A DNA stretch of 64,000 nt from Vitis vinifera (lineage: Eukaryota; Streptophyta; Magnoliopsida; Vitales; Vitaceae). The translations under genes and the position numbers were made by a program. This document shows, in pieces, positions 2,791-62,400 of the stretch (the stretch's first letter is position 1; the number at the start of each line of letters is the position of its first letter). The stretch spans positions 3,525,001 through 3,589,000 of the forward strand of contig NC_081822.1 of assembly GCF_030704535.1 (NCBI RefSeq). Direction: 5' to 3'. Under the pieces are notes generated by a model that did not search any database, was not told the DNA's origin, and worked only from the letters and a program-made list of their open reading frames with translations.

Positions 2791-3330
2791 TGCAAATGTG
2801 TCTGTACGAATCCCTCACTTTTCTCCACATGCCCTGAAAAAAATAAAAGGCAAATCTGCTGAGTTGTCGAATCTAATTTGCCAGTCCTACGTCACCTGAA
2901 AATAACAAAACTCTAGAATACAGCTCAAGGACAGAGACGGTGTGGAGGACGACCATCCTTAAACGACCGTGTGGTAGCTTAGTGGGAGACACAAGATTCA
3001 TTTGCCCTAACAAATAGCAGACACGTGGTCCTCCCTGATCCTGCCAGCTCGCCGGTTCATCATTTCCTAAACACCGTTTAACTACCAACCGTTCCGTTTT
3101 GGTCCCCAAGAGGCAACCCACCCGGTAATGCAAATGGAGTCCCAGACACTACCGAGAAAGTACACGCCATCCAGTGCGCGCGTACTTTCTAGTTTCTACT
3201 CAGTACGCCTACGGCAACAACCAACCATACAAATAATCCGTTGCAGTTCTCTCCCGCGCGTACTGCGGCATCTCGTGGTCGTACTTCTATGCCAAATGTC
3301 ATCACTAACTATATGATTTTTCTCAGAAAA
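2790..3330. other. GC-richer intergenic island, no gene recognised
   Basis: Base composition changes sharply from the AT-rich flanks, and the segment contains ACACGTGG (ABRE-like) near 3020 and two GCGCGCGTACT/CCGCGCGTACT copies near 3176 and 3255. Short ORFs on both strands show no recognisable domain. It could be an old promoter or a gene remnant; nothing decides between them. Confidence 0.3.
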
Positions 3331-3439
3331 AAACTTGAAATGTTTTTATATTGTTATTTTCTTGAATGATTATTTTTCATTCCCCGCTACTTCCCAAAAA
3401 AATCAAACATGACATTAGCATAAAATTAGGTATACCTAG

Positions 3440-3960
3440 AACCCGTTTAGTAATGCTTATAGTAGAAGTGCTTTTATTAGAATGATTTAAAAAAATAATT
3501 TTAATAGTATTTTCGATAATATATTCTATAAGTATGAAAACATTTTTAATATTAATAAATTATTAAAAAATTATAATAAACCAAATATTTTTATTACAAA
3601 AATATATAAATATTATTAAAAAAACTTAAAAATTTATTTTTATAATTATGAAAATAAAAACAGTGTAGAATACACGAAAAAAAAATGAAATTCATGTTAT
3701 TGTGATAAACTTATAATAATTTATAAAATCTCAAAATTATTTTATGATAATTAGTTATCGGTTTTTTTTTTTTGTGAGAAATTTTCATAAAAATTTGAAG
3801 ATAGTGAAAAGGAAATAAGGGTAGTGGGGAACACTATGAGTATTTTATGAAAATTTAAAATTTGTTGAAGTGTTAAAAAAATTCCTCCCAATTGCTTTTC
3901 TTAAAAATATTTTAAGCATTTTTCTAAATTTTTTAAAATATTGTCAAACATTTATTTATA
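3440..3960. repeat. MITE-like AT-rich element
   Basis: The segment starts with a CCCGTTTAGTAATGCTT-like end. It finishes with an inverted partner around AAGCATTTTTCTAAA...TTGTCAAACATTTA, a loose terminal inverted repeat enclosing about 500 bp of non-coding AT-rich DNA. A short (TA)n run follows at 3957-3978. The element type is inferred. Confidence 0.35.
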
Positions 3961-14300: not shown

Positions 14301-17300
14301 CCTATATAAAATTTAGAAACTCTAAAAAAAGTATGGTAAAATTTTTTAGATTAAATGAGATTTGAAAAGGCTAATAAGAGGAAAACTTCGTTGTCCTTTG
14401 GAGTTTGGATACATTTCCTATTTTTATTTTTGAAAATGGAAAATATTAGTACTTCCTATATAAAATTTAGAAACTCTAAAAAAGTATGGTAAAAAATTTT
14501 AGATTAAATGAGATTTGAAAAGGCTAATAAGAGGAAAACTTCGTTGTCCTTTGGAGTTTGGATACATTTCCTATTTTTTTATTTTTGAAAATGGAAAATA
14601 TTAGTACTTCCCATATAAAATTTAGAAGCTCTAAAAAAGTATGGATTTACCTTATGTTTTAAAAAATTACTTCTAAAATTTGAGGTAGTAAAATTTTTGT
14701 AAACAGTTTTTTAAAAGCATTATCTTTTAAAGATAAGTCTCTAAGAGTTTCGACATTTTAAATAGGATTTACTTCTATTTCTTGCATTTAAAAATAGAAA
14801 ACAAAAATTTCGTCAAACAAGACCTTCATGTTTTTAGGTGTTACTTTCTTCAAAATAGACCATTGATGGGATGTCTAAACCTCAAACAACCTTATTTTTT
14901 ATGACCACAAAATAATTGGAATGAGAAGTAAAAAAGATGAGCTCTTAGAAGTTCATCTTTCTTTGATGATGTAGCCATAACTCATTACCCACTTATGGAT
15001 TATGAAATAACAGTGGTAGAATCACATTCAATTTGACAAAGATGCCAGAACTGAGATAATGTTGTTGTCCTGACGACATCCCATTAAGTTTTCATCCCAC
15101 ATAAGGGTACTAGATTTAAATCACAAGTTGTGAGCAAGATTGCATCTTTTCCAATTTTCAAATTCTATATTTATGCAGTTCATTTTTTTGTATCAAATTT
15201 CATAAATTTCTCCCTTTTAAAAAAATTATTGTTATTTAAATTTTGGTTGAATGCATAATATTAAAAACATATGTTTTTTCTCTCATTTTTTTAAGAAGAA
15301 AATTGAGTATCTTTATTCGAATTTATATTGCTCAATTCAAAAAATAGAGTGGAAATTAGGTGGATATGAATTTATTGAAAACAAATTTATAGTTAAAAAT
15401 TGGAACTAATTGTTGCAAAAGTTTTTCGAGTCCATGGGTGGCAATAATATTTGGAAATCATTGTGGTAAGACAAGGGAGCTATGGACTCTATTGCTATCA
15501 TTTTTTGGACTGGTGTGGGTGTTCCCGACTTCAGTGAGAAATCTTTTTCTGAAATGGAAAGTTTAAGGGACTAGGGAAGAAGAGGAAAGCAGTTTGAAGA
15601 TTGACGCCTATTTGTCTTTTTTGGTGTATTTGGGGAGAGCGAAACCAAAGAACGTTTCAAGAGGAAGAGTTGTTAGGCCAAAGCTTGGGGAACCTCCTTT
15701 TCCATTCACTTCTAGAGTGGTCTCATCAGTTTTTGGATTTAGATTTTCCCTCTTTTTTGAATTTTTTGGGTGATTGGCATGGTGGCTAGCTTTATTTCTC
15801 TCTAGTTTCTTTCTTTCTTTTTGTAGCCTAGGTTTGACTCTTTTTGTATACTGCCTGTATATGTAGCCCCCCCTGTTTTGGGGTCTTCTTAATTCAATTT
15901 GCCTTTGTGTATAAAAAAAAAAAATATTTGAAAAAGAAGTATATATAAATAAGTTGTGAAGCATGGTTATGTGCTGAAAGCATGAAAATCTTCATGTTAC
16001 ATTCTTCGTGATTAAATTTTGAGTGGCTTCTCTAGTTTCATTTCCATTAAGATATTGCCTTGTTGGTCATTTCAAACAAGTGCATCTATAACATCAGCAT
16101 TTTATTAAATTCTTTGGCATTCCAGATTAACTTCTTCAGTAGTAATTATCAAATAACCAAGGTTGTCAATTGTTTTTGTTGAGTCAGGTTAGTCATCACC
16201 CTATGATTGTTGCATGTCACTGTGAGGGTACGGGATGGAAATTTTGGGCAGATAGCAATTTAAAGAGCAAATTTTGGGGTCGGTCTATTCAGCTTGATCC
16301 CATTGGCGCTTTGACTTTGGAATTTGATGATGGAGAAACTTTTCAATGGAGTAAGGTATGGAGCAAATGATTGGAAAGTGTTTATTCTCTTTTAGATTCC
16401 AATTTAAAATTGGACTTTCTTCTATCAGGTAACAACATCAATATACAATCTTATATTGGGAAAGTTGTACTGTGATCACTATGGTACAATGCGCATACAG
16501 GGAAATCGTGAGTATTCATGTAAGCTGAAATTCAAGGAGCAGTCAATCATAGACCGGAATCCTCACCAGGTGCGCTCTCTCTCTCTGTCTCATGTGCATG
16601 CATACACCCGCTCTCCCTTGCCTTCTCTCATGCACACATTCACAGATTTACTGCTAAAACACAAAAATTACTTGCTACACGCTGTTACCTGAGTCTCTTT
16701 ACTATTCTGTTACTATACAAATAAAATTAGGCACAAGCACACAAATGCACACAGATATTCATGCTAATACACCAAATAAATACATAAATAAATATAAATA
16801 TATATATACTTGCTACATGTTATTTCCTGAGCCTCTTTATGATACTGTTAGGATGATCCTTCAATTCCTTCTTTTCTTACTGAAGTATGTGAGTCTAAAT
16901 TATGGCTTGCCAGATCATGGTTTAAATTTTTTTTGATAGCATGTTGATATCTTTATCAATCATGATTTAGGAGAGTTATTAGATATTTCAGCATCATGTG
17001 AATGATATTCTACTTTGGATATTTTCTGCATGTCTAAAAGTTGCATATTTGCCTTTGTGAATCTCATTTTGAGTGTCGATATTGTACATATGTTGTAGAC
17101 TGCATATGTTATATCTATACAAACATTCACTACATCTGCATTGCTATCTGATTTAAAATTCTGCAATTAACAAAAGAAAACGCATGGATATTTGGAACGT
17201 GACATGGCACTATTCTTATCTTCTGAGGAAAACATATGCAAATATTAAGTAAAAAATAATAATAGAGATTTGAATTTTGCTGCATAGATGAGTACATTTA

Positions 17301-30400: not shown

Positions 30401-31514
30401 TAACTAGGCCAATCACGTCAGTGTGGAGAAATTCTTCTCCCAGCTTTCCTTAAATGTTAATAGTCTCTAGTTTCATTCATTGCTACCACCTATGAATGTC
30501 TCTTGCACATACAACCGTAAGAACATCTAGTAGTGGAGCTTTAATTTTTGAACTAAGAAATCAAGAAGGATGTGATTGGTTTTTTCCATTGAATGTGATC
30601 TTTATCGGTGGAATGATTGATAGTGGCTTGTGTAGTCTTCACAATATCGTGGGGGCATTCTTTGGACAACTGTTGTTTGTGGGGCATATGCTTGGTATGG
30701 TCTTACTAAAGTCCTAGATAAGAACATGGCTTCCCTGGGTAATTATTGCCCCTGTATTCATCACTTACTGGGTTTGAGGATGAATTCCATGGATGGCCTG
30801 GACTGTCAAGTGCCACTTTTTACTAATCATGGTGAAATTTTTTTACTTGAAAGCTGACTGCAAGTTCATTTTTTATCTTGCACAGTAGAGAAGAGATCGC
30901 TACAAGCAACTGTGTTTGCTCTGATGTATTTTTTTTCAAGTGATTTTTCACCTTAGGTTAAAAATGATGGTTTAGGAAACAAATTATATAGGGATATGAA
31001 CTGAAAGGGGGTATGATAATGATAATGCAGGGGCAGCAGTTTGATGATTAGGTTATTAGCCTGTCCACCTGCTGTGAAGGGCTGGTGTTTAAAACTATCT
31101 TTGCTCATTTGTTGTTCTTATTATTATAATTTATTGTTTTGATAGGCTGGAACCTTTGGTTATTGTCTATTTGGATGAGGTTTTAACATTTTCTTCTCTA
31201 TCAGGAAACCATTGATCAGGCTAGGAGCTAACATGCCTGCACGAGCAGAACGAATGGCCAGAAGGAGTGATTTTGATCAATACACCCCAGGCGGAGGTAG
31301 CAGCTTGACCCCTTCTCGCAGTGGAGAAGTCTATGAAGTAGTGCTTTATTTTGGGATCATTGATATTTTACAAGACTATGATATAAGCAAGAAGCTAGAG
31401 CATGCCTACAAATCCTTGCAAGCTGACCCTTCCTCAATCTCAGCTGTTGATCCAAAACTCTACTCAAAGAGGTTCCGAGATTTCACAAGGAGGATCTTTA
31501 TAGAAGATAGGTAA
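27449..31514 (+). CDS. PIP5K: Phosphatidylinositol-4-phosphate 5-kinase with N-terminal MORN repeats (type I/II B plant PIP5K), 8 exons
   Basis: Exons 27449-28590, 28790-28954, 29142-29307, 29496-29606, 29715-29908, 30013-30143, 30237-30330 and 31205-31514 give 770 residues. The enzyme phosphorylates PI4P to PI(4,5)P2 at the plasma membrane. Seven to eight MORN repeats (YxGxW) occupy about 81-247, all in exon 1. The lipid-kinase domain fills about 381-770. It shows the glycine-rich loop [17 protein letters not shown] with Lys near 483, [12 protein letters not shown], the catalytic MDYSLLVG at 608-615, the metal-binding IID with Asp near 721, and the substrate-selecting KKLE near 730-733. No key residue is missing. 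The frame stays open upstream to a GTG at 27410, but the first in-frame ATG is 27449. The next gene upstream, ORP1, handles the same lipid. Confidence 0.95.
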
Positions 31515-32100
31515 ATGTGAAACAAGGAGGCGTCAAAAATTGAAATTCAGAGCTTGGAATTGAGAGATATTTGCCAATTGAATCTGGGGTCCCACTCCTC
31601 GGGGGCAAACTGTTGGGGGACTTGTGCAGCTCCCAGCAAGCAGAAACAAACGGTTTGTGGGCTCAGCATGACCTATCGATCGAGGCATCTGAAAACAAGG
31701 TTGACTACAGCACGGATTAATTTAATGATTGGATTAGAGCAATTGCAGAAGAGATGGCTGAATTTTGAGGATCAGCCATGGTGTTGTGGAGTGGGAGAAG
31801 TACTTGTACATTCAAGGGGGAAGGGAAAATTGGATTCTGTTTTCCTTTTTTCTTTTTTGTTGTTTTTTTTTCTCTGAAATTTTTGTGGTAACCAAGAATG
31901 TGAAGATTGAAAGATAGGTATAGGGAACGGAGAAAATGTTCCCCCGAGAGAAGATTCAAAAAAAAAAAAAAAGGGAATGGGGAGGGAGGCACTGGAATAA
32001 TAAGTGTACAGCTTATAGAAAGGGATATGGACAAATTTTATGGAATTTCATGATATTTTGTTAATGTTGTGGGGATTTGAAGGAATGGAAAATGTTTTAT
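31515..32100 (+). other. PIP5K 3' untranslated region and downstream flank
   Basis: No further ORF belongs to the kinase. T-rich stretches and an A-run at 31959-31972 fit a 3' UTR; a poly(A) site cannot be fixed from sequence. A (CT)n tract follows at about 32139-32157. Confidence 0.45.
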
Positions 32101-35100
32101 TGTTAAGGGAGAGAGGACCCCATTGGGATCTCTCCCCCCCTCTCTCTCTCTCTCTCGCTTTCACGTTGTAAGTGTTATATGAATGGGGGTCTCTCTCTAC
32201 TGACTGGCCATGGGAGCATAGGGGGGAAAATGGGGTCAGTGCTTTTCTTTTGCAGTGAAAGAGGAGGCATTGGGCAGGTAGAGTTAACACATCAAAAGCA
32301 GAGAAAGCAACGAGAAAGATGCGCTGGCTGGTGTTGCTTGTTTCTGCTCGCCCGCCCTTTCTTTTACTTCTTTTTAAACTCTCCCCCTCCCTCTCCCTCC
32401 TGTATCTTTGTTTCTTTTATACATATATATATATATATATTTCAAAAATTCTTTCCTTTACCTTTTTCAATTTTCAATTTTCCTTTTGGGGACATCCCTC
32501 ATGGTGACAAAGACCATTGACCGAAATCGTGTCCCTCCATCATGCCAACGCTGTGGGGGATATACTGTCCACGTGGCAGACGTGGCTACAACTGGCATTC
32601 CAAATTAATAAGGGGATGGTTTTGTCATTGTGGATACTCGGCATTTCCTCTCATTGGGACTCGTGCGAGGGTAGCACTGCAGAGGTCAAAGTCTGTGACA
32701 GTAGTTCCCCAGCGGGGTCCAAACCCCTCTCCTCTCCAGTTTCTCTTTTTGACCTTGCACCCTTTTGGGGCCTTCTTGCGTCTATCTGGTCTCACTCAAA
32801 AGCAAGGGTCCGAGTGATTTTGATTGCTCCGTGCTTGCACGTGGCACACGCACTTGCCTTCTTTCCATTCATTGCAGGATTCCTCTCAAGTCTTGTTCTC
32901 AACGGTTGTATTTTTTCATGCTTTCAGAGACGAGTTCTCTTCAATTTTATTTCCCAGTAGTTAATGAAAATTTAAGAATTTCACTTTGGTTTTTTTTTTT
33001 TTTTTCTAATGTTTTAATCACCAAATTTCTTGAGTTTTCTAGACTGCACTTGGCAGAAAGTTCTGTTCAAATAAGTTTTCTTAAAACAACTAAGTAATTA
33101 AATGATGAAACAGTTTGACCTTGTAATATGAAAATAGGAGAAGACGGCCTACTGGTCAAAAAAACCCCTCCACGATAGTGGGATCCATGTCTGAGCAATA
33201 CGTTTGTGATGGAGTCAAAACGATGCAATATTGTAGGCTGAATGTGATTAGGTTTTTTATTATTTTACCTGTAGCATATTTATATTATCTAGGGATAAGA
33301 TTTTGGGGTTCCAAGAATCAGTCAGTCCCTCCGGGATTTGAGAGAAGTATGGTGACCCTCTCAACCCAATACACTTATTTATCCCTATGCCCTTTGTTTA
33401 ACTCTCTTCCTTTTTTTTATTTAACCCAACAAGGGTTTTCCAACCATCACAAAATAAAAAATGCTTCCCAATTGATTGACCAAATATGAATCCACTTTGC
33501 TCTGGGCACAGTGGTACTGATATAGAAAGGAGGTTGGTTCTTACTTCTTGCAAAGCAAGCTCCTAAGGAAGGTGGTGCTCCCTAAAATTAGCAACCATAA
33601 TGATTTTGGACAGAGCCACAGCGGAATTGGTATTTTTGGTGAATAATTTGAGGGTACATTATAACTTTATGGGGGGATTTTTTGTTTTAAGAAACAAGTA
33701 AAGAGCTTCCAAACAGTACATGAGATCTCCCTTTCTCTGCCTTGAGGACATAGCCCTTGTAAGTGCTGGGCAATCGATGAAATCCTTTCTAAATATGCTT
33801 TGCTCTGTCCATGCGGGCGTAATCATTATAACTTCCCCAACCCCAATTCCCCATCAGCCACAAAACAATCATCTAAACTTGCTCCTTCCATAATGTAACT
33901 GCATTCATGCTCTCTCTTTCTCTTTTTCTTTTTCCTTTTTGGTTCCATGTGTTTAGTAATTTGTGATTTGGATACGTATCTTTCAGAAGATAAATCTTTG
34001 ATTTTCCTGCGATATGGGTCACCCGTCACCCAAAAAAAAAAGATATTTTTGTAATAATCTCAAGTGTCGTACAAGTGATCCTCTTTAAGAAGAGGATTGA
34101 GGTGGAATCACTCTGATCCACAGTAAAACAAATGCTTGTGATTAAACATGACTACTCGTTGGTAAAACAAACTTACTTTTGCTGGAGGGACATCGCACTC
34201 ATCATTCCAACCCATTTAATCATGTGATGTTTGGTGCAACTTTTATTCATATTTATGTTTAAAATAAAATAAAAGAATTTAAATGTACATATTTTCCTTT
34301 GATTAAAAAAAAACATATGCTTCAAGTAAAATTTGTAATAATTTAATCCTTGAACGCAAACCCATTATTAACCCAGAGGCCACAAACCCAAACCCAATAA
34401 GATAGTGAATATCCCTTGGAAGTTGAAACCCATGTTTTCTACTGTTTCAGTACTTTTGGAAATCAAAGCAACCAGCACAGTTCAGCTGAACTGAGTTGGG
34501 TTTTCCTTCCCTTTAAAAGAACCAAGCATCCAAGCTTGAAACTATTTCCTCCTCTTTTCGTTTGAACTTCCTATCTTCTGGGTAACCAAACAAATTAAAG
34601 AAAGGGAAGGGATTGCACGAATCTCAAAAAGGAGAAGCAAGGCTAGGAGGATGAGGGTGGGAGTAGTGGAGTTGCGGCCTGTGGGGAGGACTGAGCAATA
34701 GCAATAGAGGGTGGCAAATGGGGATATTGATAGGTGGCAGTTGCATGCATAAAAAGCATAAAAAACCTTATTTACCGAATGGTACGGAGAGATATCATCT
34801 GATTTTGAGTCTACGGGGTCCAGTCCGTGTTCATGGGCTTATGCTAGGACTCAGGACCATTAAAAGTAAAGTTACCAAAGCCTTCACAAATTTGTACTCT
34901 CTGTCTACGTTAAACGAGACACACTCGCCGTCTATTGTCTGACACCTATTTATTTCTGGCACTTCCGTAAATTCTCCAACTTCCAAGCCCACTTTCACTT
35001 CTACTCCAAACCATTTTCAAATCGTTACTCTGTCCTTCGTTCCACTCTCCAGTCTCAGTCCCACCGGCAGCACAACAAGGTTTCAATGAAGCTAATTCCA

Positions 35101-38100
35101 TATCTAGCGGATATTGTGATAATTATTTTACTCAAATCCAATGGATTATATTCTTAATTTAAAGTGAAAGGACGGATTGGATTTAGGAGAATACGATAAA
35201 TTGGACGCACCCAAAACGAGGTTTCTCTCCACATACGTCTGATCCACTCAAAACCCCCGACATCAAGCACCATCGCCTTCACTTTGCTTGTCCTCTGTCG
35301 ATCCAAACAAAATGGGAAATGATCATGTTCCTGGTGAAAATCCATATCTCTTTGAAATTCAATTTCAAAATCGCCAATGCGTACGTATCCTATTTCACCC
35401 TAGAGTCTAGCTTGTAGATAAACGCCAACAAATATTCAATCCCTCGTGTTATCAGCATTGGTGGTAGTACATATGAATACCATAATTAAAAAATCCCACA
35501 CCACCAAAGTCCTGGTACATAAAAGACTAAAACTAGTGTGAGCAGAGATCCATCAGCGTAGCTGAATTTACGGCCAGAGGGTAGGTGCACTTTTGGAAAG
35601 TGGTTCTAGAAGTCATTAAGCAACACAAAGTGCAAAATTATTGGTCACCCTTAACGTAATAAATATAGGCGAAGATATACATGTGGTTTGACAAAGACAG
35701 TCAAACGCAGACAGGCTCCATCTAGGGTCACCTTGGTGGTTAAATTAGGGGACACAAGCTTTGGAAATTTCTGCAATTCTTGCGATTCTTAGCTGTGCCC
35801 TGTCCACTTGCTCCTATCGCTGCTGCTGCAAGCCAAGTGTGCGAGAGAGGCAACGGTGATTTGCGTGCGACCCAGGGTTGTTACATGACTACGTGCCCCT
35901 CGTGCATGTACAACTATTCAGACACGCACGCTTATTCCTCAACGTGCATGCATCTCTCTCCTCCTTCGAAAATACCTTCCTTCATGCTTGGTCAACCACC
36001 TACACTTCATCTTCTCCTTCATTTCACTTTTATCATGCCAAACACTGAACCTGATCACCGCTCCACGTTTGGACCTTCCAACTGTCCATTGGGCTCAACA
36101 AGGCCCGTTTAGGTTATTAATGATTACAATTACAAATGGGTTCTGTTGACTGTTTTCTTAATTTCCAAGTCATTTCGGAAAACGGAATGAATAGAACCGA
36201 ATGGGGATGGTGACGGTCGGATAAGGGGACAATGAGTTACCAAACATGTGAATTACACAAGGAATGTTCACACTGTGCGCAGCTTCAAACACGTTACCAA
36301 ACACCCCGCCACCGATCAGAGCTGAGCATTGGGGGCCCAATCAATAGTTAAATGGGTGCGGCCATGTGTCGGGCAGAGCCCGCATGATACCCAGCATGAG
36401 TCTGTTGGGAAGGGGACAGCTCCTCCCCAATAATTATATTCTTTTACGGTTGCAATTATTGTTCACCTACTTAAATTCTAATCTAGATTATACCTGATAA
36501 GGCCATTCCTAACCCTAATTATGGTGTCTTAAGAATCCTCAAACACTGGTGCATTATATTATTCCGTTTGTATAATGAAGTGGGATAGGTTTGTTTGGAC
36601 GCATTTGTGGGTGCCAAAATGTGGGGTTTGCTTGCCTCAGTTGCCTGGTTCAACATGGGATATTTTTAACCGTTACAATTTAGATATTTTTATAAAGAGG
36701 CCTAATGTTCTGCACAATCCGCATGTCACTAATTGTTATGTAGTGCTGATGTAAATAATCTGTCAAAAATAAACGTAGAAAGAAAGTAAAATTGCCTTTC
36801 AAAAATAATGATTCCATCCGTGGACTGACGACACTATTTCATTGAACCAAGCAGTAAGCACGACCCGTTGGTCAATATGAAATAAACGTGAACAACAAAG
36901 CGAGACCAACCCCACAAGCAATGTTTGTCAACAGCATTATTCTCTACAAGCACATCGTGCCTATCACTCTGTTCTTGGTTTTCATTTTCCTAGGCATAGT
37001 GCCAATCAAATAATTCGGTTTTAATCTCTATTTTCACGTTTATGGTGGCCGCCCGAGAATTGAGACCACCCTTCATTTTATACCCTTTTTAGTACAGTTA
37101 AAAAAGAATAAGAAAAAGAAAAATGGTGTAGGGGACAGAGCATGTTCAATATGTTCATCACCATCTCTACGGAAAGAAAAAATATGAAATTGTTTTTCAT
37201 TCTCATCTCCAACTCACAAGTATATGAATTTTTGAGGTGGGCCACCCAATATTGAAGATACAAATTTGTACAATAAGTGAGACATCAAATAAAACTCCAT
37301 GGGTGGAGCGATAGGAAAAGCTCTCGAGTCAATTGGGACAGTCTCAGAACATCTCACTCTCACGGGTCTCATCCTGATCCACCAAAACTCAGCCACTCAC
37401 AGCTAAAGGTGTTGTGTACCCTTCTTCACTCAGCTGTCGCAATAAAAACAAAATAAGAGTTGCGGCCAATGTCTTAAGAAAAGTCCATTTCAAACCCAAC
37501 ATGAGGTTCCAAAGCAGGGGGACATCTGCCCAACAATTTCCCTCTTTTTTATTATTGTATGCTTCAGATTTCCCCATTCTTCATTTATTATCATAAACCT
37601 TTCCACACCTATGATTTTACAACCCACCTGAGGAAGATCATTGGACTCCTAGTCAATTATGATGTCTAAAAAGTAAAGCTTAAACATGATCTAGATTGAG
37701 CACCATTCCATAGGGGACTCGTGTGGTTTGTTCCTTCTCATCTATTTTCCCACAAGGATTGCTTCAGACCTCAGGGTTTGAAAGACTCACAGCCTCTTTT
37801 ACTATTTACCTCAATTATAGTGTTCGTGAAATGGTTGAAAACCCTCTTTACTATTTCCCTTTGTTTTCAAGGCAGCTTGAGTGTTGAGTCGTTGACATTG
37901 AAGTGACTTTGTCTGTGGTTTAAATCATTCTTCTCAATATTTGTTCGTTCGTTCGTTTGATTGTTGGGTATATAATTTACAAAGGGAGTTAAGCAGCTCT
38001 CTGGTTTCCATAATTGACCGATGAAATTTGGTTTTCACACCCTCAAAAATCATATCCCAACATCTCGAGCCAATAAACTTGAAATTATTTTCCAAACACC

Positions 38101-39780
38101 ACCCTTTTTGTGATGAAAACTTGCCCTCTTTCTCAAGGTGAGTGGACAATTAGACACACAAAATGTGGGATACATGAGGTGATGATTCAGAGGTAGAAGA
38201 CAAGAGGGTCCCGCCCCAAACCTGCCCAACCTTTTGAATAGATGCAATAAGTAAGATGACTTGTGTTGTTGATGATGCGTTAGAATTTCTGATAAATCTC
38301 TTTCAGATGAGACCATTCCTTCTTGGTGGTCGTCTCAAATTTTGTGGGGTTATTCTAACTTCTAACATCAACCACCAAACATGTGATGGAGAGCTCTCTT
38401 TGCACGCATGGCTACATGAAACTCCCAGTGTTTCCCTTCTACTCAATTATAGGGTGGGAATCCATGAGAGAAGTTATTTTTATTCATTTTTTTTAAAAAA
38501 AATTCAATAAATTAGTTTTATTAGATAAAAATGAAAGGGAAGTCCATGTTGTGGGTGGGGATACCTTATTTATGGTGGATGGAATTTAAAAAGGAGCAGC
38601 CCACTTGCATCAAATTGCAACTACCCAATCATCCGACCATCCAACTAATTGAAGGGGTGACCCTTGTGGGCGTCAATAGATACACTCGTCTACCCGATCG
38701 CCTCAAGGGTCCCTTTTGTATACTATTCTATAAGGACTTGTCTTATATATATGGCTCTATTTCTATATTATGTTAGGTTACCTTCACATATTATCGTGAG
38801 GGAAAAGGGTCGAGGAATCTCATTTAATGCTTTTGGGCTCCGCCCAGAACTGAACTATGTGAGAAGAAGGCCCGATAACAATTTTATTGGCCCATCACAG
38901 TTTTCCGGGCCATGTAAGGCCGGCCCAGATAAAGCTAGATGTCCAATTAATCATATAAAACCTGGGCCACCCACTATTGGAGTCGGACTCCCTGCTCAGT
39001 CCTGTCTCATTCGGTGAGGTCCAAATCCAACTCAACTTTCTGTAAAGACAATTAGAATGCAGAATATACTAATTAATTCAATACTTAGAATATTTATGGT
39101 CTAAATTATCTATAGAAGAGGATAATTTTAAAAGAAAAAGTGATATGATATTAATATAATCGTGTCGTATTAAGCCCTTGGGTTGTGCCAATGGGCCGTC
39201 TGATGAACCATACTGATGGGTTGTTTAGGGAGACGCCCTACCTTATTAATATTTAATTTATTTTTTCAAGTCATTCTATAGATTTAGATTATTTTTGTTA
39301 CATCTTATATAATTATAGTCTGTATTTTTTATATTTATCAAGTTTGTTATTTAAAAATAGTAAAAATTTCAAATTTTTTTTTTTAAAATAGAAAAAAAAA
39401 TCATATTTGAATTTGTTATTGATCATAATAACAATAAATTTAAAATGTTGGGATATAAAAGAAATTAAAATATAAAAAATATCATTCTTTTATTGAATAT
39501 TTTAACAAATTATATAAAAAAATGAGAATTGTATCACTATAGTTATTAATTTACTTGTCCAACCCTCAAAATGATATTCGACATGCAATAAAAAAAAAGA
39601 AGCAAAAATTAATAATTGAACCAAGTAGATTGGCACAATGGGCCGAGATGATGGCGCCCTTAGACCCAGACCCAAAGTAGCAGGTTGTGCTGACTCAATC
39701 TGCCACAGTAAATGGGTCAGCTAGGGTTGGCCCGGTTTTTTGATGTGTGTTGGGGTATGGGCCAGATTGGGGGGGGCGTG
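32100..39780. other. Long intergenic region without a supportable gene
   Basis: I read all the open frames here (up to 147 codons) and found no domain, no exon chain and no RNA gene I recognise. Small items are a (TA)n run at about 32413-32440, a G-box with a second ACGTGG at 32570-32585, and homopolymer T runs near 32990. The region is likely regulatory or spacer DNA. Confidence 0.5.
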
Positions 39781-39789
39781 TCCATCTAA

Positions 39790-40195
39790 CACCTCTACTT
39801 TAAATATAAAATCATTTGATAAAATTAACTTAAATTTTATTTTAAAATATCAAATTGACATTTATTTTCATTAATTTTAACTAATATTTATATTTTCACT
39901 AATATTAAGTAATTATATTTATTAAGTATTTATATATAAAATAACTATAAAAATATTTAGAACATAGAACCATATTTATTAAATATATTTTCATTAAATA
40001 TGCATAAATAACGTAAAAGAAATTGGGACTAAGAATTTATTAACTATTTTAATTTAATATTTAAAATTATTTTTTTACTTTAAATTATAATATTAAGTTA
40101 TTTTATCAAAGTTTAATCTATCTAATAACTTAAATTAAATTCATCAAATTGTAAAAAATTATTAAGTTAAATCACCGAACACCCACTAACAATAA
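39790..40195. repeat. Degenerate MITE-like copy related to the repeats at 1.0-2.3 kb
   Basis: The stretch AATTGACATTTATTTTCATT...TTTTAACTAATATTTATATT closely matches 1070-1130, in the same orientation. The right end, TAAGTTAAATCACCGAACACCCACT, is the inverted form of the GTGTTTGGTAAA terminus at 1268. Non-coding. Confidence 0.55.
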
Positions 40196-41201
40196 CAACA
40201 ATCGATAAGATAGAAAGGCCTTTTTCACGCCTCCACAATTTTAATGATGCTTTGATGATAGAAAGACTTCTTTTCAATTGATATTAGATAAAATACGGTG
40301 AAGTGAAAATACTCTGCAAAAAAATATTTATGGATTGAAAGGATAAAATTTCAAGGGGGTTCTCTTGAAGGTGGTTCATGGCAGTATTGATATTGCACCA
40401 ATTCTAAAACACCATCGATGACAAAAAGGGACAAGGGCAGCAATGAAAAATAGAAAGTTAGTGCAGGCCTCACTACCTTAATGCTTCGAGGAATCCAATG
40501 TACAAAACTAATAAGAGGCCAGTGGAGTTGGCAATCATCAAACCCTTGAATAGCTTTTGATAAAGTTAATTCGGATTTGTACAAGGAACATTTGTGGGCG
40601 ACACCATCACACCCTCAGTGGCAGTGGGTTCAATTTCACCGTCCAACAAAACCAAATATTTCACTTCACCTTGTTAATTAATTAAATTTTGAACTTTAAT
40701 GGCCCATACACGCTACTGAACTTTCTCAACATAATGGGCCATGCATGCTCTGCACATTGGTCTTTGATAGTTGCCTCAACCCTCACCTACTCCACCTTTT
40801 TTGTCTTCTTCCTCAGCTACGCATTGCCATTGTTGGATTCTTTAATATTCTCTGCTGATATCCTGACCTCTTCCTTTACGCTTAACAACCACTCCCGTTT
40901 CTTATATACATATCCTGATCACCATCTCTTCATGTACCGAGCGACTATAAATTTGGATTCATCATACTAACTACATAGTATATATAGATAACGGGCAACG
41001 GATTTACCCACCAAAAACCATGGAAAAAGAAGGCATATTTTGACGCAATAAAATAGAAGCATACGCCTAAGGGAAATGGAAAGAAGTAATTAACCTTTAA
41101 ATTGCGGAGAAAAGTAGATGGTTGTCTTCTTCAGCCCCGTTCTCTTGCTTACTTGGTGCTGCATGATGAGACTGCCGTCGCTTGCATGGACTGTTGTGAG
41201 G

Positions 41202-41341
41202 GCTTCTCAGAGAGAAATTTACAGAGCCAATTTGGCATCCTGGCCGCCTCCAAACGCTTGTGGGCGCCAATTCAGAAGAATTGGTATATATGGAGGTGGA
41301 CAGAATGCCAAAATGGCTCTGTAATATTGCCTCTGAGAATC
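41202..41341 (-). ncRNA. MIR394: MIR394 microRNA precursor hairpin
   Basis: On the minus strand the sequence at 41311-41292 is TTGGCATTCTGTCCACCTCC, identical to mature miR394 of land plants. It lies in the 5' arm. The 3' arm (complement of about 41222-41252) pairs with it almost throughout: 17 Watson-Crick pairs, one G-U and two mismatches over the 20 nt. Pairing extends outward through ACAGAGCC and CTCAGAG, and inward through a small AATTC/GAATT stem. A 5'-arm position and an ACAGAGCC-like flank are typical of plant MIR394. The known role is cleavage of the F-box mRNA LCR, acting in leaf shape, shoot stem-cell maintenance and stress response. Minus-strand TATA-like CACTATAAAC at about 41491-41500 may be the promoter. 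The gene stands alone in a 13-kb gap between coding genes. Confidence 0.95.
41292..41311 (-). ncRNA. miR394: Mature miR394
   Basis: Exact 20-nt match to the conserved miR394 sequence, in the 5' arm of the hairpin. The opposite-arm strand has the reduced pairing (two mismatches, one wobble) expected of a miR/miR* duplex. Confidence 0.95.
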
Positions 41342-41599
41342 CATGGAGAGTGGGAGAGAGAGATAGCAAAAGGTGTGGGAATGCTAGTCTTTTGGATTTG
41401 TTCTCTTGGTGCTTTTGGAAATACGAGTGAGCATGGGGCAAAGAGGACAAATTGGCGTGCATTCTGATACGGTGGGTTTTTGTTTTTTGGTTTATAGTGA
41501 AGAATATCATTTGTATCTCATAGCCTTTCTGCAAATCTTTTTGACTTGTCACGAAAGGAGGAAGCAGACTGGCTTGCACTTTGTCCCCCACCCATTCTC

Positions 41600-44500
41600 T
41601 AAATCGCTTTCTCGATTGTCAACTACTTCTCTATTCAAATTTCAACGCTCTTACCTCTTTATCTCCTTGACACTTTCATTCATCCCAACAACATCGCATC
41701 ATCGGAGGCATCAAATTGATGAGCTCAACATTAAATTTAAGTTGTGATTTTCAAAACCCTTGTGAAATTTCATGTTTGGGTGTGAATTTAATGATTTGAA
41801 TAATCCAACAATTAATCAATAGTTTGGATTACATATTCCATAAATAATTCTAATTTTCTTATAAAGTAGATGGGTAAAGTTCTGTCACAAGAATTCCGCT
41901 CCTATCTACTCCACCATAAAGAAGGCTCTAGGACGGTGCCAATCAGACAGTTGTAACCAACAACGAGGTGATGAAACCCTTTCTAAGGATAAGACATAAA
42001 TGAAGATTAGTTGGCCAACTGTAACAATTGCAAAAGAGAAAAAAAAAAAAAAAAAAAGACATTTTAATCTTCAAAATTTTAAATTCACATTTATTGCACA
42101 ATTTTCTATTACTACCAAAAATAGAATAATTGATTTAAAACAACTAAAATAAATTAAAATAAAAGGGAAAAGAACCTGGCACCATGGCGTTTGAAGCATA
42201 GCTAGGATGGTCCGGAGAAAAGGCTGAGAACAGAATGAAGAGAACAGAGGATATGATTTCCATTCAGATGGGAAACAGAGTGGGAGTAAACAGATGGGCA
42301 GAGGTGACAGTAGGCTGATTGGGAGAAACATCTTCAATCAGGGTTTACAGCTGCGCCATTTCCATATGGGGCTTGTGGCAGTGACCAGTGATCGGTGATC
42401 AGTGATCAGTGATCACTGATCACTGAGCAGCAGCCCTAGGATAAGAGGGCCCCACTTGCTCACCATTTTTGTCCATTTTCCAGGGCAAGAGCGGGCCCGG
42501 CCCTCTCCCTTCTGCACGCACCAATGAAGCGGATCTAAGGCCCATGATCTCCATGATCCGATCATCTATCAATGCCCCGTCAATACTAACTCATCACATC
42601 ATTCATTTCATTTCATTTCCTTTCCTTTCCTACCATCTCCATCACATCTTCCATCTGTCACATCCTCTGAACTCATAATCATCACGCTCTATCCTATACC
42701 CTATTTTTTTAATTCTTTAATATTAATTTCCTTTATTTTATGTATTTTTTTACCATTCAGCTCCGTATGGGCCTACAGGAGGGCTGGGCCGTATAATCAG
42801 GGTTCCTGTGGGTTAAAGTGGGCCTCCCATCATCCATAGACCCATTTAGCACAAGCAGTAAGCTCTCAAGCTTTTGCTGTTCTATCATCACGTGATTGTA
42901 AAAGTAAGTGGATTTGTTTCAAATTTTCAAATTAGTAAAATGACCAACCCCTTCTCGGCGTTGACCGATCCGTTGATGTCATGCCCAGGCCCCCAGCCAG
43001 CATTACTATAAAAGTGAAATTCTCAAACGACATTCCAAATCGACAAAAGCTCACGAGTCGCCAAAAGCGGTGAATGACAATTTGTAGCTTACGAAATTAC
43101 CGTTCTGTGACTACCATTGATATTCATTTGAACTAGGCCAAAAAAATGAAACTAGACATGGTGGAAATCTGGAATTTTTCCCCAGACACGGAATGCCCTA
43201 TTGCATGTATGAAAGGACTCTTGTTTCAATGTGAGAGAAACCTCACTGACCAATGTTCTTTTTCTTATATGAAATACCAACAATGGCAGCAATAGTACTG
43301 GGTGTTAGGGTTTTTCTTTTGTTTTTTTTATGGTTTAAAGCTTTCAGGAGGTGGAGGTGCAGGTGCAGTAGGCAAGGAACAAGTGAGAAACCAAAGTGCT
43401 TAAGCCAGAAAGGGAATGGTCAACCCCACGACCACAGGCCCTCGGATCAAAATCTAACCCAGCATTTTGTGGTTTCAGCATCAGAATATAGGTATAGCCA
43501 TCTTGTATGAATGTAGTAAAAGAGACACAAGGGGTTGCAGATCTCAGATAAAGAGGAGACAAAGAAGGGCGACTGGTTGGGACTTGGTGCTAGTGATCAG
43601 AGACTGTGTTTCTGTGACTTGAGTTTTGCATGGCTCAAGAAGAAAATTACCGTAACATAAGGTCCATAACCGTTGAGAAGCAGATAACATACACATTTGT
43701 GCAATCCCCAAGACTATTATTAAAGAAAGGATGAGAGCAAAAAAATTAAAAAGATAAAAGAAAAGCACTCGGGTTGTACCATCAGAAAGAGGAAAAGCAC
43801 CAACTTTGGAGATTTTGCTTACTCGACTCGGTGATCCTGAACGGCGTCAAACCCTTCTTCATTTATGAAACGTCCATTCCTTTGTACATTCCCCATTTAA
43901 TGCTAATAGCTCGTCCAAATTCTCTCTATTCTCCTTTCCAACATAAACTAACACGCAAAAATATTTATTGCTTTGATGTTGGGTTGAGGCCATAATTTTT
44001 GGCATTGGATTCCACTGGAACTGAAGCATTCCATCATCAGCTGCAGCTACCCCACTTCAGTTCAACCAGTATCTACATAAATTTAAAACCATGGGTCTTA
44101 TTTGAATTCGACTATTTTTCATGTATAATAAATCTTTTCAGTTTACGTCTATGGTACAATTTTTGTGGCAGCCTAACTTGATTTAAGTTTCACTCCCGAA
44201 TATTCAAATCAAGTTGTAAAATGTTTAGATATTTTATTCAATTTCATTTGAAAAAATAATCTAACTGAGGAATTTCATTTCAGTTGTATTTGGTCTACCT
44301 GTTCAAATATCTACATTCAATGTGTTTGCCCGATGTTTCTTATGGTCTGCAATCTGCATGCACAAATATTGCAATCAAAGGCAATCACCGGTGCCAAGAG
44401 AAGCTCTAATGTAAACATATTAGTGAAAAAATATAAAAATAAAATCAATTATGTAAATAAAAATATACAAGATTCAATCTATCAATTTTTTTTTCTCACG

Positions 44501-45180
44501 AATAAAAGAGATCATTTTATATACATAAAAATATAACTATTAGATTTCAAAATATTCAACTTTTTCCTAATTGGTCATCAAGCCTAATCTTAAATAATAT
44601 TTTTTATTAAAATTAATTTAATTTTTAAAATTATTATGCTACTATTTTCATATTTATTTTTATTAAGTAAGAGAGGTATGAGAACAAACAAAATAAAAAA
44701 AATACGAAAATATGATGATAAAGATTTTAAAAAGTCATTACTTTAATTATTATTTATTAATTTAAATGATAATATTAAATTATTTTTAATATTTTATTAA
44801 ATAATAATATATTTAATTACTTTTAAAATCATATGAATATATTAAATTAACTTATCAACCACAATGAAAATAGTTTTGTGAATTTATTTTTCTATTTAGA
44901 ATATAAATTGAACTAGCAGTTATTTTATGTATAAGTTGAGAATGATAAGCAAGATTATATTTATGTAAAAAAAGAAAAGAAAGTACCCAAAAATAAATTG
45001 GGGGAGTAGAATATTAAATTCATGGGATCTATTCACATATCAAATTCAAAGGGAAAGATAAGATGAGAGAATGCAGGCAAGTCTGCGCAGCGGATGCATG
45101 AAACTCTTCTCTCTCATAAAACGCCGCCAATGCTAACTCCAGTTTGTCTTGTGATGGGGGCAGCATTTAATGAGGATGCT
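41600..45180. other. Intergenic region without a supportable protein gene
   Basis: AT-rich with no ORF of recognisable product. It contains an (A)n run near 42038-42057, TTTCATTTCC-type repeats at 42605-42630 and a well-formed CTATAAAAG at 43006-43014 with no identified gene behind it. The stretch 44.5-45.0 kb is almost pure A/T. Confidence 0.5.
42399..42426. repeat. 28-bp perfect palindrome built from 8-bp TGATCAG repeats
   Basis: Reading outward from the centre at 42412/42413, fourteen bases pair perfectly on each side. The arms are themselves repeats of CAGTGATC, and more imperfect copies extend left to about 42381. It could extrude as a cruciform or bind a dimeric factor; function unknown. 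Confidence 0.85.
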
Positions 45181-45481
45181 ATCAGAAATCTCCATTTCCA
45201 ATTTTCATCATTACTCAGATTTTTTTCTCTATTTTTTATCCATAAAACCCAGCCATGATACGAAAAGCCATCTTTCCTTGCACGCCTTTGGCATTCTATA
45301 CTCCAATTTCCGCCGTCTGATTGAGGGACCTTACTCCTCTACTTGCTCTGATTCTGAATCATTCCTTGAGCCAAACCTCCACCACTACCACCACCGTATA
45401 ACTCCGGTGTTCTGATCAGTTTGTCTTCTAAATCGGCTTTCTTCTTTTTCTTCTTCCACCGTTTTGTTATTTTGCAATCCC

Positions 45482-47387
45482 ATGGCTTCTCAGCTTCTCA
45501 ACACAAACCCTAGAGGGTCGAAACCCTTAAACCCAAACGCACATGCTTTCCAGCCATGGAAATCATTGAAAGCTTATTATCTTCCACATCACTTGTACGA
45601 AACACAGGAAAGGATGCAACTGCCGGCAGCGGCGACGGTGCTGGATTTCGCTTATCAGCCTGTTTCCTTGCCACTGTTGAGATATTCCGGTTTGGGTTGC
45701 TACAGTGCACAGTTTCATCATCAACCGCTGCACCTGCGAGCTTCTTCCATTCTTTACCCTAGTGGCGACTTTCCCATTACCTATGTGGGTTCTACGAAAG
45801 ATTCGGTCACTGAAGTGATGGAGGATTTGGGGGATTCGGTGTCTTCGAGAGGTGAGACAAGGAAAGTAAGTGGGGTTCCGATGAAGAAGATGATTGCACC
45901 GAGATTGAAAAGGTCGCAGAGGAGGAGTTCTATGGCAGGCGGGGACAAAAATGGGACCTCTGTTTGGAGGGCCAGAAAGTTTTTGAACGGTGATGGTTGT
46001 GGAGATGATCCTTTGCCTCCCTCTGATGTCAATGCCTTTGAACTTTCTCTATCTGGGAAAACTACTGTGATGATTAGAAATATTCCAAACAAAATGAGGT
46101 TCCATCTCCTTCCCCCCTTCCTAACATCAGATATCACTTCTATTCCTCGTCAATTTCTCCTAAATTTGATCTCTACCAATTCTTTTTTGCAGTCATAGTT
46201 TTCCCTGTTGCGCATGACATAGCTTGATTTGCAACATTTGTTTCTTGTTTTGGTCAATCTCTTAACACAGATTCTTCAATCCAAAAGTGTTGATTGTTTT
46301 CTTTCAATTGCCTCTCCTTACCTTCTCACCGGCTATCTCTGTCTGTCATGTTCTGCCCCTTTTTATTCTAAAGACTGAAAAAGCATATAAACGGAAGCCA
46401 TCAGTAGTTTCACTTGCATCATTCTTTACTGTCTGTCCGAACCCATTTGTACTATTCAGGAAATGTTGTCTGCCCAAATCTTGATGATGCTGATCTCTCG
46501 GCATGCATGCATGCATCCATGCGTTATTACATCAGATCACCACTTGATTGATTTATTTATACAAATTCATACAGCTGCATTGTTCATTTGCATATATGCA
46601 TCGATATTGATATAATGTGTTTTTACCTTTGTTGAAATCATTGTTAATGGTTATGCAGTAGGAAAGATATGCTACAATTACTCGATGAGTGTTGCCAAGT
46701 AGAGAACAGAAACGCGGAGTTGCGATGTGACTCGCTTCGTACTGAGTATGACTTTGTCTACTTGCCCATGGATTTTAGGTGAGGGAAAACAATCTTTTCC
46801 TCAACTGCACCATTGTTTTTCTTTGCTCTACAATGTAGTGACACCATATCATGTTGGTCGATGAGCTTGCGCCTATATATGTTCTCAGGTTTAAGTGCAG
46901 CAATAAGGGCTACGCATTTGTGAACTTCACCACAGATGTTGCCGCATTTAGGATCTGCAAATACTTGCACAACACCACATGGGCGGCTTACGGGACCAAG
47001 AAAATATGTGAAATCACAGGCGCCAGAATCCAGGTGACGGTGGTGTTGTCATATTTATTATACTTTCCTCTTATTTTGATTTTGTTTATTTTCCTTGAAG
47101 TTTGACACTTTCCTCATCCTGTGTCATTATCTTTTTCGATTTCTCGAAATATCTTATCTTTTTGATGGGTGAAATCTTTCTCCGTCAATCATTGATCCAA
47201 TTTTGCTTCTCCAAAGCAGGGAAAAGAAGCGCTAGTTGGACATTTTCGGAATTCGAATTTCGAGTGTAGCACAGATGATTACCTCCCGGTTGTTTTATCT
47301 CCTCCTCGAGATGGTATGACCGCCATAACCACACCACGGATTGTCGGTAGACGCGTTGTTTCCAACAAATCCATGAGGAAACATTGA
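45482..47387 (+). CDS. MCT1: Mei2-like C-terminal RRM-only protein (MCT-like RNA-binding protein), 4 exons
   Basis: Exons 45482-46098, 46659-46778, 46889-47033 and 47220-47387 join in phase to 349 residues. The C-terminal half is the divergent RRM of Mei2 proteins (RRM_2): TTVMIRNIPNKM at about 194-205 (RNP2-like), a helix with DMLQLLDECC, then GYAFVNFTT (RNP1-like), and WAAYGTKKICEITGARIQG after it. The two N-terminal RRMs of full-length Mei2/TEL proteins are absent. In their place is a Pro- and aromatic-rich segment with no known domain, which is the architecture of plant MCT proteins. Mei2-like RRMs bind RNA and act in meiosis or meristem control; the role of MCT proteins is largely unknown. 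The ATG in CCCATGGCT has good context. The RRM is split by introns within NKM/S and MDF/R. Confidence 0.88.
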
Positions 47388-58409: not shown

Positions 58410-59979
58410 TCAGAAGAGTTCAAAGAGAGGTTTTGACACACTTTTAGTGAAGATGTCGGCAACTTGCAAATGCGAAGGCACATACTGAGTGCGAAGCTTG
58501 CCAGCGAGAACAAGTTCACGAAGAAAATGATAGTCGAGCTCAACATGCTTAGCCCGTTCATGAGAAACAGAATTGGAGCTCAAGAAGATGGCACTCTTGT
58601 TGTCACATAGGAGGAGAGGCCGCTGTGGAATTGAAACTTTGAGGTCATCGAGGAGATGCATGAGCCAAAGAAGTTCGGCAGCAGTGAGCGCCAAAGCACA
58701 ATACTCAGATTCACAACTGGAGTGAGAAACAGTAGGTTGCTTCTTAGCACTCTAAGAAACCAAGTTACCATCAAGATAAATAGAATAATCAACGGTAACT
58801 GCCCAATCTACGTCTGAGTAAGCAACTAAAGCACCAAGAGCAGTAGAGGGATGAAAGGTGAGGCCAAAGTGTAGCATGCCTTTAACATAGCGAAAAATGT
58901 GTTTGACATCAAGAAAGTGGTCTTCAGTTGGGGAGTGGAGAAATTGACTAACAGAGTTGACAACATGAGAAATATCCGGACGGGTGATGGTCATATACTG
59001 GAGAGTACCAACAAGAGATCTATAAAGTGTAGGATCCGAGAATAAAGGACCATCAGCAGACAGGTGTTGTGAAACAACCATGGGGGTGTGAACAGGTTTG
59101 TTGTTAAGTAGCTGAGCTCATGTGAGAATATCTCGTGCATATTTCAACTTGCTGATGAAAAGGTCGTCAAAGGTGGTCATTGCTTCAAGACCAAGGAAGT
59201 AACTGAGAGGACCCAAATCCTTAGTGGCAAAACTCATAATTGAGTTTGCAAGTAAAATTGTCAAGAAGAGATGAGTTGTTGCCTATAATAATGATGTCAT
59301 CAACATAAAGAAGCAGATAAATTATGTCCGAGTGCTTATGAAAAACAAATAGTGACATGTCTGCACGACTGCAATAAAAACCAAGTTGAATGAGAAAAGA
59401 GTTGAGGCGCTGGAACCAGGCACGAGGAGCTTGCTTTAGACCATAGAGGGCTTTCTGCAACTGATAGGCATGATTGGGAAAGCAAGGGTCAATGTATCCA
59501 AGGGTTTGCTCCATATAAACATGTTCACTGAGATGGCCATTAAGAAACGCATTTTTGACATCAAGTTGGCAAATGGGCCATTTGTTGGTCACAACAAGAT
59601 AAAGGACAACACGGACTGTAGTGGCCTTGATGACAAGGCTAAAAGTGTCAGTGTAGTCAACATCAAGTACTTGTGTGTAGCCCTTGTCAACAAGAAGGGC
59701 TTTGAAACGTTCAATAGATCCGTCAAACAAATATTTGGTTCGAAACACCCATTTGGAACCCACAATGTTGGTGTTGGTGGGTCGAGAAACCAAAATCCAG
59801 GTACGATTGTTTTGCAAGGCTTGAACTTCTTTATCCATAGCAGCGAACCAAGCAAGATTCTTAGCAACAGATTTGAATCCTTTAGGCTCGATGGATACAA
59901 GAAGAACGGAAAGAAGTCCAAAGGAACCCACGAGTTCGAGATGTGCTGGGTGGCGCTTTTTGAAGATGCTGGTTTTGGC
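58410..59979 (-). pseudogene. Copia reverse transcriptase and RNase H region, broken
   Basis: The RT part (about 59931-59221) shows WVFRTK, QLDVKNAFLNGHL, ALYGLKQAPRAWF and the catalytic YVDDIIIIG. A one-base insertion in the A4 run at 59229-59232 shifts the frame before DLGPLSYFLGLE. Stops at 59118 and 58752 follow. The RNase H part shows SLVGTLQYMTITRPDI, SCESEYCALALTAAELLW, LLCDNKSAI and HVELDYHFLRE. The TGA at 58410 cuts the last few codons, because the same frame continues (SKLHVRSN) toward the PPT. Confidence 0.92.
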
Positions 59980-61605
59980 TCATGTGAGTGTAGGATGAGA
60001 ACCCAAGGAAGCAACTGCAATGGAAGGGCGATCAACCATGGGTAACTTAGTAAGAGGCTTCGGAGAAGCCAGTCTGAAGTCTGAGTGTGATGGAGAAGGA
60101 CCTGTATGAGAATCAGTTGTCTGCAAAGACTCATCCACTGGATCAGTACAAATAATACACGAGGTGGATTCGAATTGAGGAATATGTCGGAAGTTTGATG
60201 CAGGGGAAGGCAGGGGCATGTCTGTGGGAGGGAGACTTAGTTCCAAAAAAATTAAGATTTGGAGAGAGGATATTGGTTGGGCTTGGGAAGTATGGTGAAA
60301 AGGAAAGTGGTTTTCATCAAATTGAGCATGACAAGTAATATAAAGTCTGGAGGTGGTGGGGTCAAGACAACGAAAACCTTTATAAGATGAATGATAACCC
60401 ATAAAAATGCAAGGGATGCTCCGAGGGGAAAACTTGTTAGTCATGTAATCACATAAACAAGGATAAACATGACAACCAAATGGATGAAAAATTTCGTAAT
60501 TGGGAGAGGAACCATATAGGAGTTGAAAAGGTGACTTACCTTCGAGAAGCGGTGTGGGCAAACGGTTGATGATGTAAGTCGCAATGCTAAAAGCATCAAC
60601 CCAGAAGTGAGTAGGAATGTGAGAATGAAAAATGAGAGTCAGACCTGTTTCAGTCACATGGCGGTATTTCCTTTCGGCGCAACCATTTTGTGCGGGTGTA
60701 TAAGGACAAGAGATTTGATGATGAATGTCAGAGGTACTAAGATGGGCTTTAAAGCAATTGCTAGTGAATTTTGCGTCACCGTCACTTTGAAAAAATTTTA
60801 TACGAGCAGAATGTTGATTTTCAACAAATTTTTGAAATTGAAGAAAAATATTAAAGAAGTCAGATTTCAATTTCAATGGGTAAATCCAAGTGAAACGAGA
60901 ATAATCATCAATAAATAAAGCATAGTATGTGAAACCTAAATTGGATTGCACAGGAGATGGGTCTCATAGATCATAATGAATAAGATCTAAAACCTTTGAA
61001 GATCGATATTTAGTACGAGAATAAGGCAAATGATGATTCTTTGCAATTTGACATGTACTGCATAACGCAGGAGATGACAATAAAAAAGTAAGAGAAATCT
61101 GTCATTTTTTATTCAGAAAAGAAATAACATAATAATTCACATGTCCAATGCGAGCAAACCATAAAGCATATGAAGTATGAAGAGATTTATTTTTCAGGAT
61201 AGAAACAAAACTTGAATTTCCGCGTTCTAGCACATATAGGTCGCCATCCTGTTCACAAAACTTGAATTTACTAACGGACAAAAGATTTTTAGTGATGTGA
61301 GGGACAACCAAAACGTCTAATAGTTGAAAATCATGGGAATGGAAAAGTTTACCAGTGTGGGTAATGGGTAGAGACGCACAATTCCCGACAATAACACAAT
61401 CCTTACCCGTATAAAAAGTGGACTGGTCCAAGGAAGATTGGCGTGGAGTGATATGGGTCGAGGCCCCTGTGTCTAAAAACCAAGTCGAAGCCTCATTTCC
61501 AGAAATGGAATACAATGTATTGAGGGCTTCGGCGAGTTGGGCTTCAGGGGTATGACCATGGTGGTTATACCGTTGCTGGCACCGATCCGCATAGTGACCC
61601 TCCAC
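59980..61605 (-). pseudogene. Copia protease and integrase region, broken
   Basis: The protease motif is WFLDTGASTHIT (DTGA active site), followed by the GAG-pre-integrase region. Integrase catalytic positions are visible in ALFIDDYSRFTW (first Asp), FFQSDGDAKF (second Asp) and AQNGCAERKYRH (Glu). Stops interrupt at 61102, 60964 and 59980, the frame resuming unchanged after each. Confidence 0.93.
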
Positions 61606-62400
61606 GCGGCAAATTTGACAGCGTGGGAGTCGTCTGCCAGAGGAGCGTCCCTGTCTGCGTCCGTTGTTGCCAGTGCGAATCGGTTGATTGCAGTAAAAAG
61701 AGTTGTGCTAGTTCGATTTTGCTAAATTGCTATTGGTGGCGACGAACACCGCAGGGGATGGTGCAGCAAGTTCTAAAGATTTTTGGAAGAGCTCAAAGCT
61801 TTTTGCTTTTGGCACAAGATCTGCAAAACAAGGCAAATGGGTGAGAGCCATTTGGGTCGTGGAGAAGCTCGAGAATTCCGAGCCAAGACCTCGAAGAAAC
61901 CAGTGCACTTTGTCAGTGCCATCGACGGGTCGTCCGATTGCATGGAGTTGATCGCGGAGTGCCTTGAAGGCGCGGACATACTCTAAAACAGATCTGGTGC
62001 CTTGTTTCATCAGTTGCAAGTCATCCTTGAAACGGATTTCATGGGCTTTGGAGCGGTGGCTGAATGTGTTTTCCAAGGCAACCCGCACCTCAAGTGAAGT
62101 GGAGAGTTCCACAACTTCACCCATGGCCTCCTCAGTAAGGGAGGATAACATAAGGCTAAGAAGGCGTTAATCAGTATGTTTCCATGCCACATGTTTGATG
62201 TTTGGTGTCTGAGAATTTTCAGAGGTGAAACGGGGTGGTATTTTTATAGTTCCATCCACGTAGCCAATTAGTTCTTAACTCTCTAAAAGAGGAAGCAATT
62301 GACTTTTCCATAGGAGGTAGTTGGAAGAGGATAGTTTGATGGTAACCATGTGGATGAGGGTATTGAAAGGGAGAAACGTGGAAGAGGGTTTGACAGCCAT
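61606..62400 (-). pseudogene. Copia gag with zinc knuckle, broken
   Basis: ATG at 62400 begins MAVKPSSTFLPF, then NYLLWKSQLLPLLES before the first stop (62275) at codon 42. The second stop (62167) is at codon 78 and the third (61708) at codon 231. Between them lie typical Copia gag stretches such as SHRSKAHEIRFKDDLQ and YVRAFKALRDQLHAIG. The CCHC knuckle CQICRVEGHYADRC lies after the third stop and leads into protease in the same frame. Confidence 0.9.

Follow-up and report, generated by a model that had tools for sequence, protein, structure and literature searches.

A third grapevine MIR394 locus, lying on chromosome 18, that appears to be the catalogued vvi-MIR394c

In Arabidopsis, miR394 moves inward from the outer layer of the meristem, repressing the F-box gene LCR (PMC5371771, PMC3870963). 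It is among the 14 families described as having conserved processing modes; in the base-to-loop short mode, an internal bulge lies 15–17 bp below the miRNA duplex (PMC8688358). The family is also documented in grapevine. Table 1 of PMC6376759 gives three vvi-miR394 entries in miRBase, and of the 20 miR394s newly predicted in its Table 2, 19 have the same mature sequence as the locus described below. Published positions place vvi-miR394a on the minus strand of chromosome 12 (17.12 Mb) and vvi-miR394b on the minus strand of chromosome 18 (1.41 Mb) (PMC5050227). A 2010 grape paper provides RACE primers for Vitis vinifera miR394b and, in its Table 1, gives the 22-nt form UUGGCAUUCUGUCCACCUCCAU for both MIR394A and MIR394C (PMC2831844). 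Finally, the lncRNA VIT_218s0001n00230 is named as the precursor of vvi-MIR394c in Table 2 of PMC6488645.

This work addresses a stretch of 64,000 nucleotides of the grapevine genome (C18:3525001-3589000, hereafter the window), in which a MIR394 gene had been predicted from the letters alone. It examines the hairpin and its surroundings, its relationship with the other grapevine copies, its predicted target and probable activity, and the strand from which it would be expressed.

The hairpin and its intergenic surroundings

The minus strand of the window carries TTGGCATTCTGTCCACCTCC, read from position 41311 to 41292, which is identical to miR394 at 20 of 20 positions. When up to three mismatches are allowed, the window holds one more miR394-like site, which is the other arm of the same hairpin, read on the plus strand with three mismatches; no such site turned up in 100 shuffled versions of the window. 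The segment 41180-41360 (minus) forms a single long hairpin with a folding energy of -83.1 kcal/mol and a z-score of -10.45, a stability that none of 200 shuffled sequences equalled, and the mature sequence lies in its 5' arm. Among 1064 stretches of 181 nt taken from the plus strand in 60-nt steps, the lowest energy of the window (-89.4) belongs to the stretch starting at 41161. The hairpin is also seen as an inverted repeat (I1), whose 52-nt arms (41201-41252 and 41291-41342) are 83% complementary. The features of the locus are given in Table 1.

Table 1. Features of the MIR394 locus, in positions of the window
Feature	Position	Strand	Basis and remarks
MIR394 precursor hairpin, putative vvi-MIR394c	41202..41341	-	fold and inverted repeat
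Rfam RF00688 match	41218..41325	-	72.8 bits minus, 79.3 bits plus, cut-off 60
Mature miR394 (5p), exact 20 nt	41292..41311	-	sequence and fold
Predicted miR394* (3p), 2-nt 3' overhangs	41230..41249	-	computed from fold
TATAAA, possible TATA box, weak	41491..41496	-	pattern alone; 185 nt upstream of miRNA 5' end

Within the duplex, 18 of the 20 miR394 positions are paired, by 17 Watson-Crick pairs and one U-G wobble (position 8), the mismatches falling at positions 12 and 15. The original prediction, which had placed the exact 20-nt sequence on the 5' side of a long minus-strand hairpin with precisely this count of pairs, is thus correct on all three points. The fold gives AGGCGGCCAGGATGCCAAAT (41249-41230) as the predicted star. 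Criteria for plant miRNAs comprise few duplex mismatches, no large bulge and a precursor under 300 nt, together with small-RNA reads of both the miRNA and its star whose ends are precisely defined. Both duplex mismatches are one-against-one and the hairpin is about 140 nt long, which fits the duplex and precursor part of these criteria. In the predicted fold, the unpaired stretches below the duplex stop 13 and 17 nt short of the 5' end of the miRNA, a spacing near the 15–17 bp of base-to-loop short processing and suggestive only. Globally, the locus almost certainly belongs to the MIR394 family: the proposal of a MIR394 gene is borne out by the minus-strand RF00688 score, above the curated covariance-model cut-off of 60, by two further loci in the genome and by a one-mismatch site in an F-box gene. 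A low-threshold Rfam search of 31500-45500 gave seven matches, two of them to MIR394 and five to other miRNA families, all five at the same hairpin and far below their own cut-offs.

The hairpin lies between a gene that combines MORN repeats with PIP5K domains, which ends at 31514, and the next long coding ORF, which starts at 45416. The resulting gene-free interval is 13.9 kb long, and no Pfam family reaches an E value of 0.01 or better in 31515-45400 (six frames, stops read as X). Therefore, the 13-kb gene desert described earlier stands for proteins with known domains. The gene beginning near 45416 (window 45416-46198), which is taken here to be Mei2-like, has a weak RRM_2 match (E = 2.3e-4, under Pfam's own cut-off). 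Two overlapping ORFs, of 121 (plus) and 164 (minus) codons, had been described as by-products of the hairpin region. They are indeed present and a protein-coding reading is rejected, six frames of 31515-45400 giving no Pfam family; their lengths require TTG or GTG starts, and the longest ATG-initiated ORFs overlapping the hairpin have 93 (plus) and 137 (minus) codons.

AT-rich low-complexity repeats are abundant in the intergenic region around the hairpin. About 1 kb upstream of the hairpin, at 42380-42427, lies a GATCA-type inverted repeat. In the window scan, the stretch starting at 42361 ranks second in fold stability (-83.0) and was rejected as a miRNA hairpin: it consists of the GATCA-type repeat inside a branched fold that is not miRNA-like. 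A search of the window for tRNAs was negative, and a scan for promoters and terminators of bacterial type, the wrong kind for a plant, gave results at chance level. Retroelements, or probable pieces of them, are present elsewhere in the window. A Copia-like retrotransposon extends over several adjoining minus-strand ORFs at 59221-62166 (RVT_2, E = 2.7e-49 in a scan of 59221-59979), and a reverse-transcriptase zinc-binding domain (zf-RVT, about 11914-12162, plus, E = 1.1e-23), probably a retroelement piece, lies within one apparent gene, with the PH exons on one side of it and the oxysterol-binding exon on the other.

Three grapevine loci and the name vvi-MIR394c

The genome search covered 495.6 Mb on 21 contigs and scored 48 of 92265 first-look candidates, so that its count of at least three MIR394 loci is a lower bound. 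Each locus is matched on both strands, and five of the six matches exceed the cut-off. An independent pattern scan of the genome lists exactly three exact complements of miR394. Besides the window locus, the copies lie at C12:19107571-19107665 and C18:1447354-1447451, and at each of the three it is the minus strand whose 5' arm contains miR394 without a mismatch.

The copies at 19.11 Mb of C12 and 1.45 Mb of C18 agree in chromosome and strand with the published vvi-miR394a and vvi-miR394b, respectively, their positions being off by 2.0 Mb (a) and 0.03 Mb (b), as between assemblies. Furthermore, all four RACE primers published for miR394b match exactly at one of the three loci (L001), with no match within three mismatches at the other two (L002 and L003), and the 22-nt form published for MIR394A and MIR394C fits the window locus and L003, not L001. 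The lncRNA name VIT_218s0001n00230 is presumed here to refer to chromosome 18. As a and b are assigned to the other two loci, the window locus appears, by elimination, to be vvi-MIR394c, already catalogued. The gene itself is already known, since MIR394C is listed in the 2010 grape paper (PMC2831844). The word 'hidden' used in the original prediction is therefore not appropriate: miRBase contains three grape entries (PMC6376759) and a named lncRNA is tied to vvi-MIR394c (PMC6488645).

The three copies share an identical mature miRNA and differ elsewhere. Thus, vvi-MIR394a and the window locus are 74.8% identical over 163 nt, with a similar lower stem and a similar 3' arm, whereas in the predicted folds the open duplex positions are 8 and 12 in vvi-MIR394a and 12 and 15 in the window locus. 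Like the window locus, vvi-MIR394b carries the miRNA in the 5' arm; however, it is predicted to be unpaired at positions 7–9, which are paired in the window locus, and its 3' arm is Rfam-like. Argonaute sorting in plants is known to be influenced by duplex shape. The difference between c and b could conceivably lead to differing Argonaute loading or cell-to-cell movement of an identical miR394, the duplicates being kept for the shape of their duplex rather than for their product, a model that is considered highly unlikely.

The neighbourhoods of the copies were also compared. The matches listed for the Mei2-like neighbour fall on C15, C5 and C11, and C12 is absent from them. Between the window and 29.7 kb around the C12 copy, two short matches were found besides the hairpin at E values of 1e-6 or better. 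One, at window 12217-12474, is inverted and lies beside the zf-RVT domain, probably within a retroelement; the other covers 51 bp at window 14266-14315.

Predicted target and activity of the locus

With up to three mismatches to a perfect miR394 target allowed, the pattern scan of the genome lists 87 places, versus 13 for the reversed pattern used as control. These include three exact places (the MIR394 loci), one with a single mismatch, one with two mismatches, which is the other arm of the C12 hairpin, and 82 with three mismatches, two of these 82 being the other arms of the C18 hairpins. A single repeated 20-mer, GGAGGTGGCCGGAATGGCAA, accounts for 61 of the 87 places, all of these with three mismatches. 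It lies inside a high-copy dispersed repeat (position 1501 of each of L009-L023), L009 aligning at 90% or more to the other 14 of the 15 repeat loci examined. With mismatches in the seed region, this repeat is probably no miR394 target.

The sole one-mismatch place among the matches listed is C1:25826693. This site, at 3694-3713 of L028, falls within a 396-codon ORF (2756-3946) whose product matches the F-box model (E = 2.6e-8) and also beta-propeller or kelch models. The ORF is thus a predicted target of LCR type, in the known miR394-LCR arrangement.

Taken together, the data very probably reflect an ordinary conserved member of the family, vvi-MIR394c, expressed as a minus-strand transcript and repressing an LCR-type F-box mRNA. 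As expected from the behaviour of the family, transcription of the minus strand would yield a pri-miRNA folding into the hairpin, from which DCL1 would excise a miR394/miR394* duplex of 20–22 nt; the 5p strand would then be loaded into an Argonaute and the F-box mRNA would be repressed through the one-mismatch site in its coding sequence.

The main competitor of this scheme keeps the family identity of the locus and concerns its activity: the window locus may be a silent or nearly silent paralogue, whose hairpin is kept in sequence but which has ceased to matter much as a source of miR394. Table 1 of PMC2831844 offers this idea some ground, as it records for MIR394C two leaf reads, whose sequence is common to MIR394A; star reads, 454 reads and array signal are all absent, and none of the four tissues (leaf, root, stem and callus) gives a precursor signal. 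The same table gives one leaf read and a precursor signal in stem for MIR394A, and no leaf read and precursor signals in leaf, stem and callus for MIR394B, both having no array signal. In addition, the berry miRNAs named in PMC5050227 include a and b and not c. Other published values concern the mature sequence, and such values cannot safely separate the loci because this sequence is the same: a and c have identical counts of 399 and 92 reads, while those of b are 365 and 78 (PMC6366190); a and c, listed with the same sequence, both have a control value of 2.71, which becomes 0.00 (a) and 0.79 (c) after gibberellin (PMC3937062); and salt lowers all three vvi-miR394s (PMC10200882). The original prediction proposed uniquely mapping small-RNA reads as its test; reads of the mature miRNA cannot decide whether the locus is active, since the three loci share a single 20-mer; the predicted star of MIR394c, AGGCGGCCAGGAUGCCAAAU, is a locus-specific sequence. 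Against silencing, the 20-mer is intact and the arms have remained complementary despite 74.8% identity to the C12 copy, which suggests continued selection, and a lncRNA has been assigned to vvi-MIR394c (PMC6488645). A silent paralogue is therefore considered unlikely.

Orientation of the locus and comparison with known systems

The functional transcript could also come from the plus strand, with a variant miRNA, UUGGCAUCCUGGCCGCCUCC, released from the 5' arm of that strand. Two scores point in this direction: the RF00688 model gives more bits to the plus strand, both strands exceeding the cut-off, and the same 181 nt fold slightly better on this strand (-85.5 vs -83.1). However, UUGGCAUCCUGGCCGCCUCC differs from miR394 at three of 20 positions and forms a weaker duplex with the F-box site (-23.3 kcal/mol vs -32.6 for miR394). 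Furthermore, the model also favours the plus strand at the C12 copy (77.1 vs 73.4 bits), although the published strand of vvi-miR394a is minus (PMC5050227), which makes the score a poor guide to the strand. The strand has therefore to be taken from the mature sequence, not from the Rfam score. The canonical orientation of the MIR394 locus on the minus strand is thus supported, and a functional plus-strand transcript is barely credible. As for a chance or transposon-derived inverted repeat, which an intergenic region rich in AT-rich low-complexity repeats might suggest, it can practically be dismissed in view of the exact 20-mer, the MIR394 family match, the presence of three loci only and the existence of a target.

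Higher plus-strand Rfam scores at near-palindromic miRNA hairpins are a possible source of wrong-strand annotation. Indeed, the MIR394 model favours the opposite strand at two of the three grapevine loci (the C12 copy a and the window locus c), which shows that this score can favour the wrong side of such a hairpin.

As a discovery, the locus carries little weight, the gene family, the grapevine loci and the target module being known. It is nevertheless a clean case of a real non-coding locus being picked up from raw sequence, where an annotation limited to proteins would have passed over it. No difference from the published vvi-MIR394c was found for the window locus, which is the third grapevine MIR394 locus and which the published 22-nt form fits. 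More largely, the predicted grapevine module associates the same miRNA family with an F-box target, as does the MIR394-LCR module of Arabidopsis.
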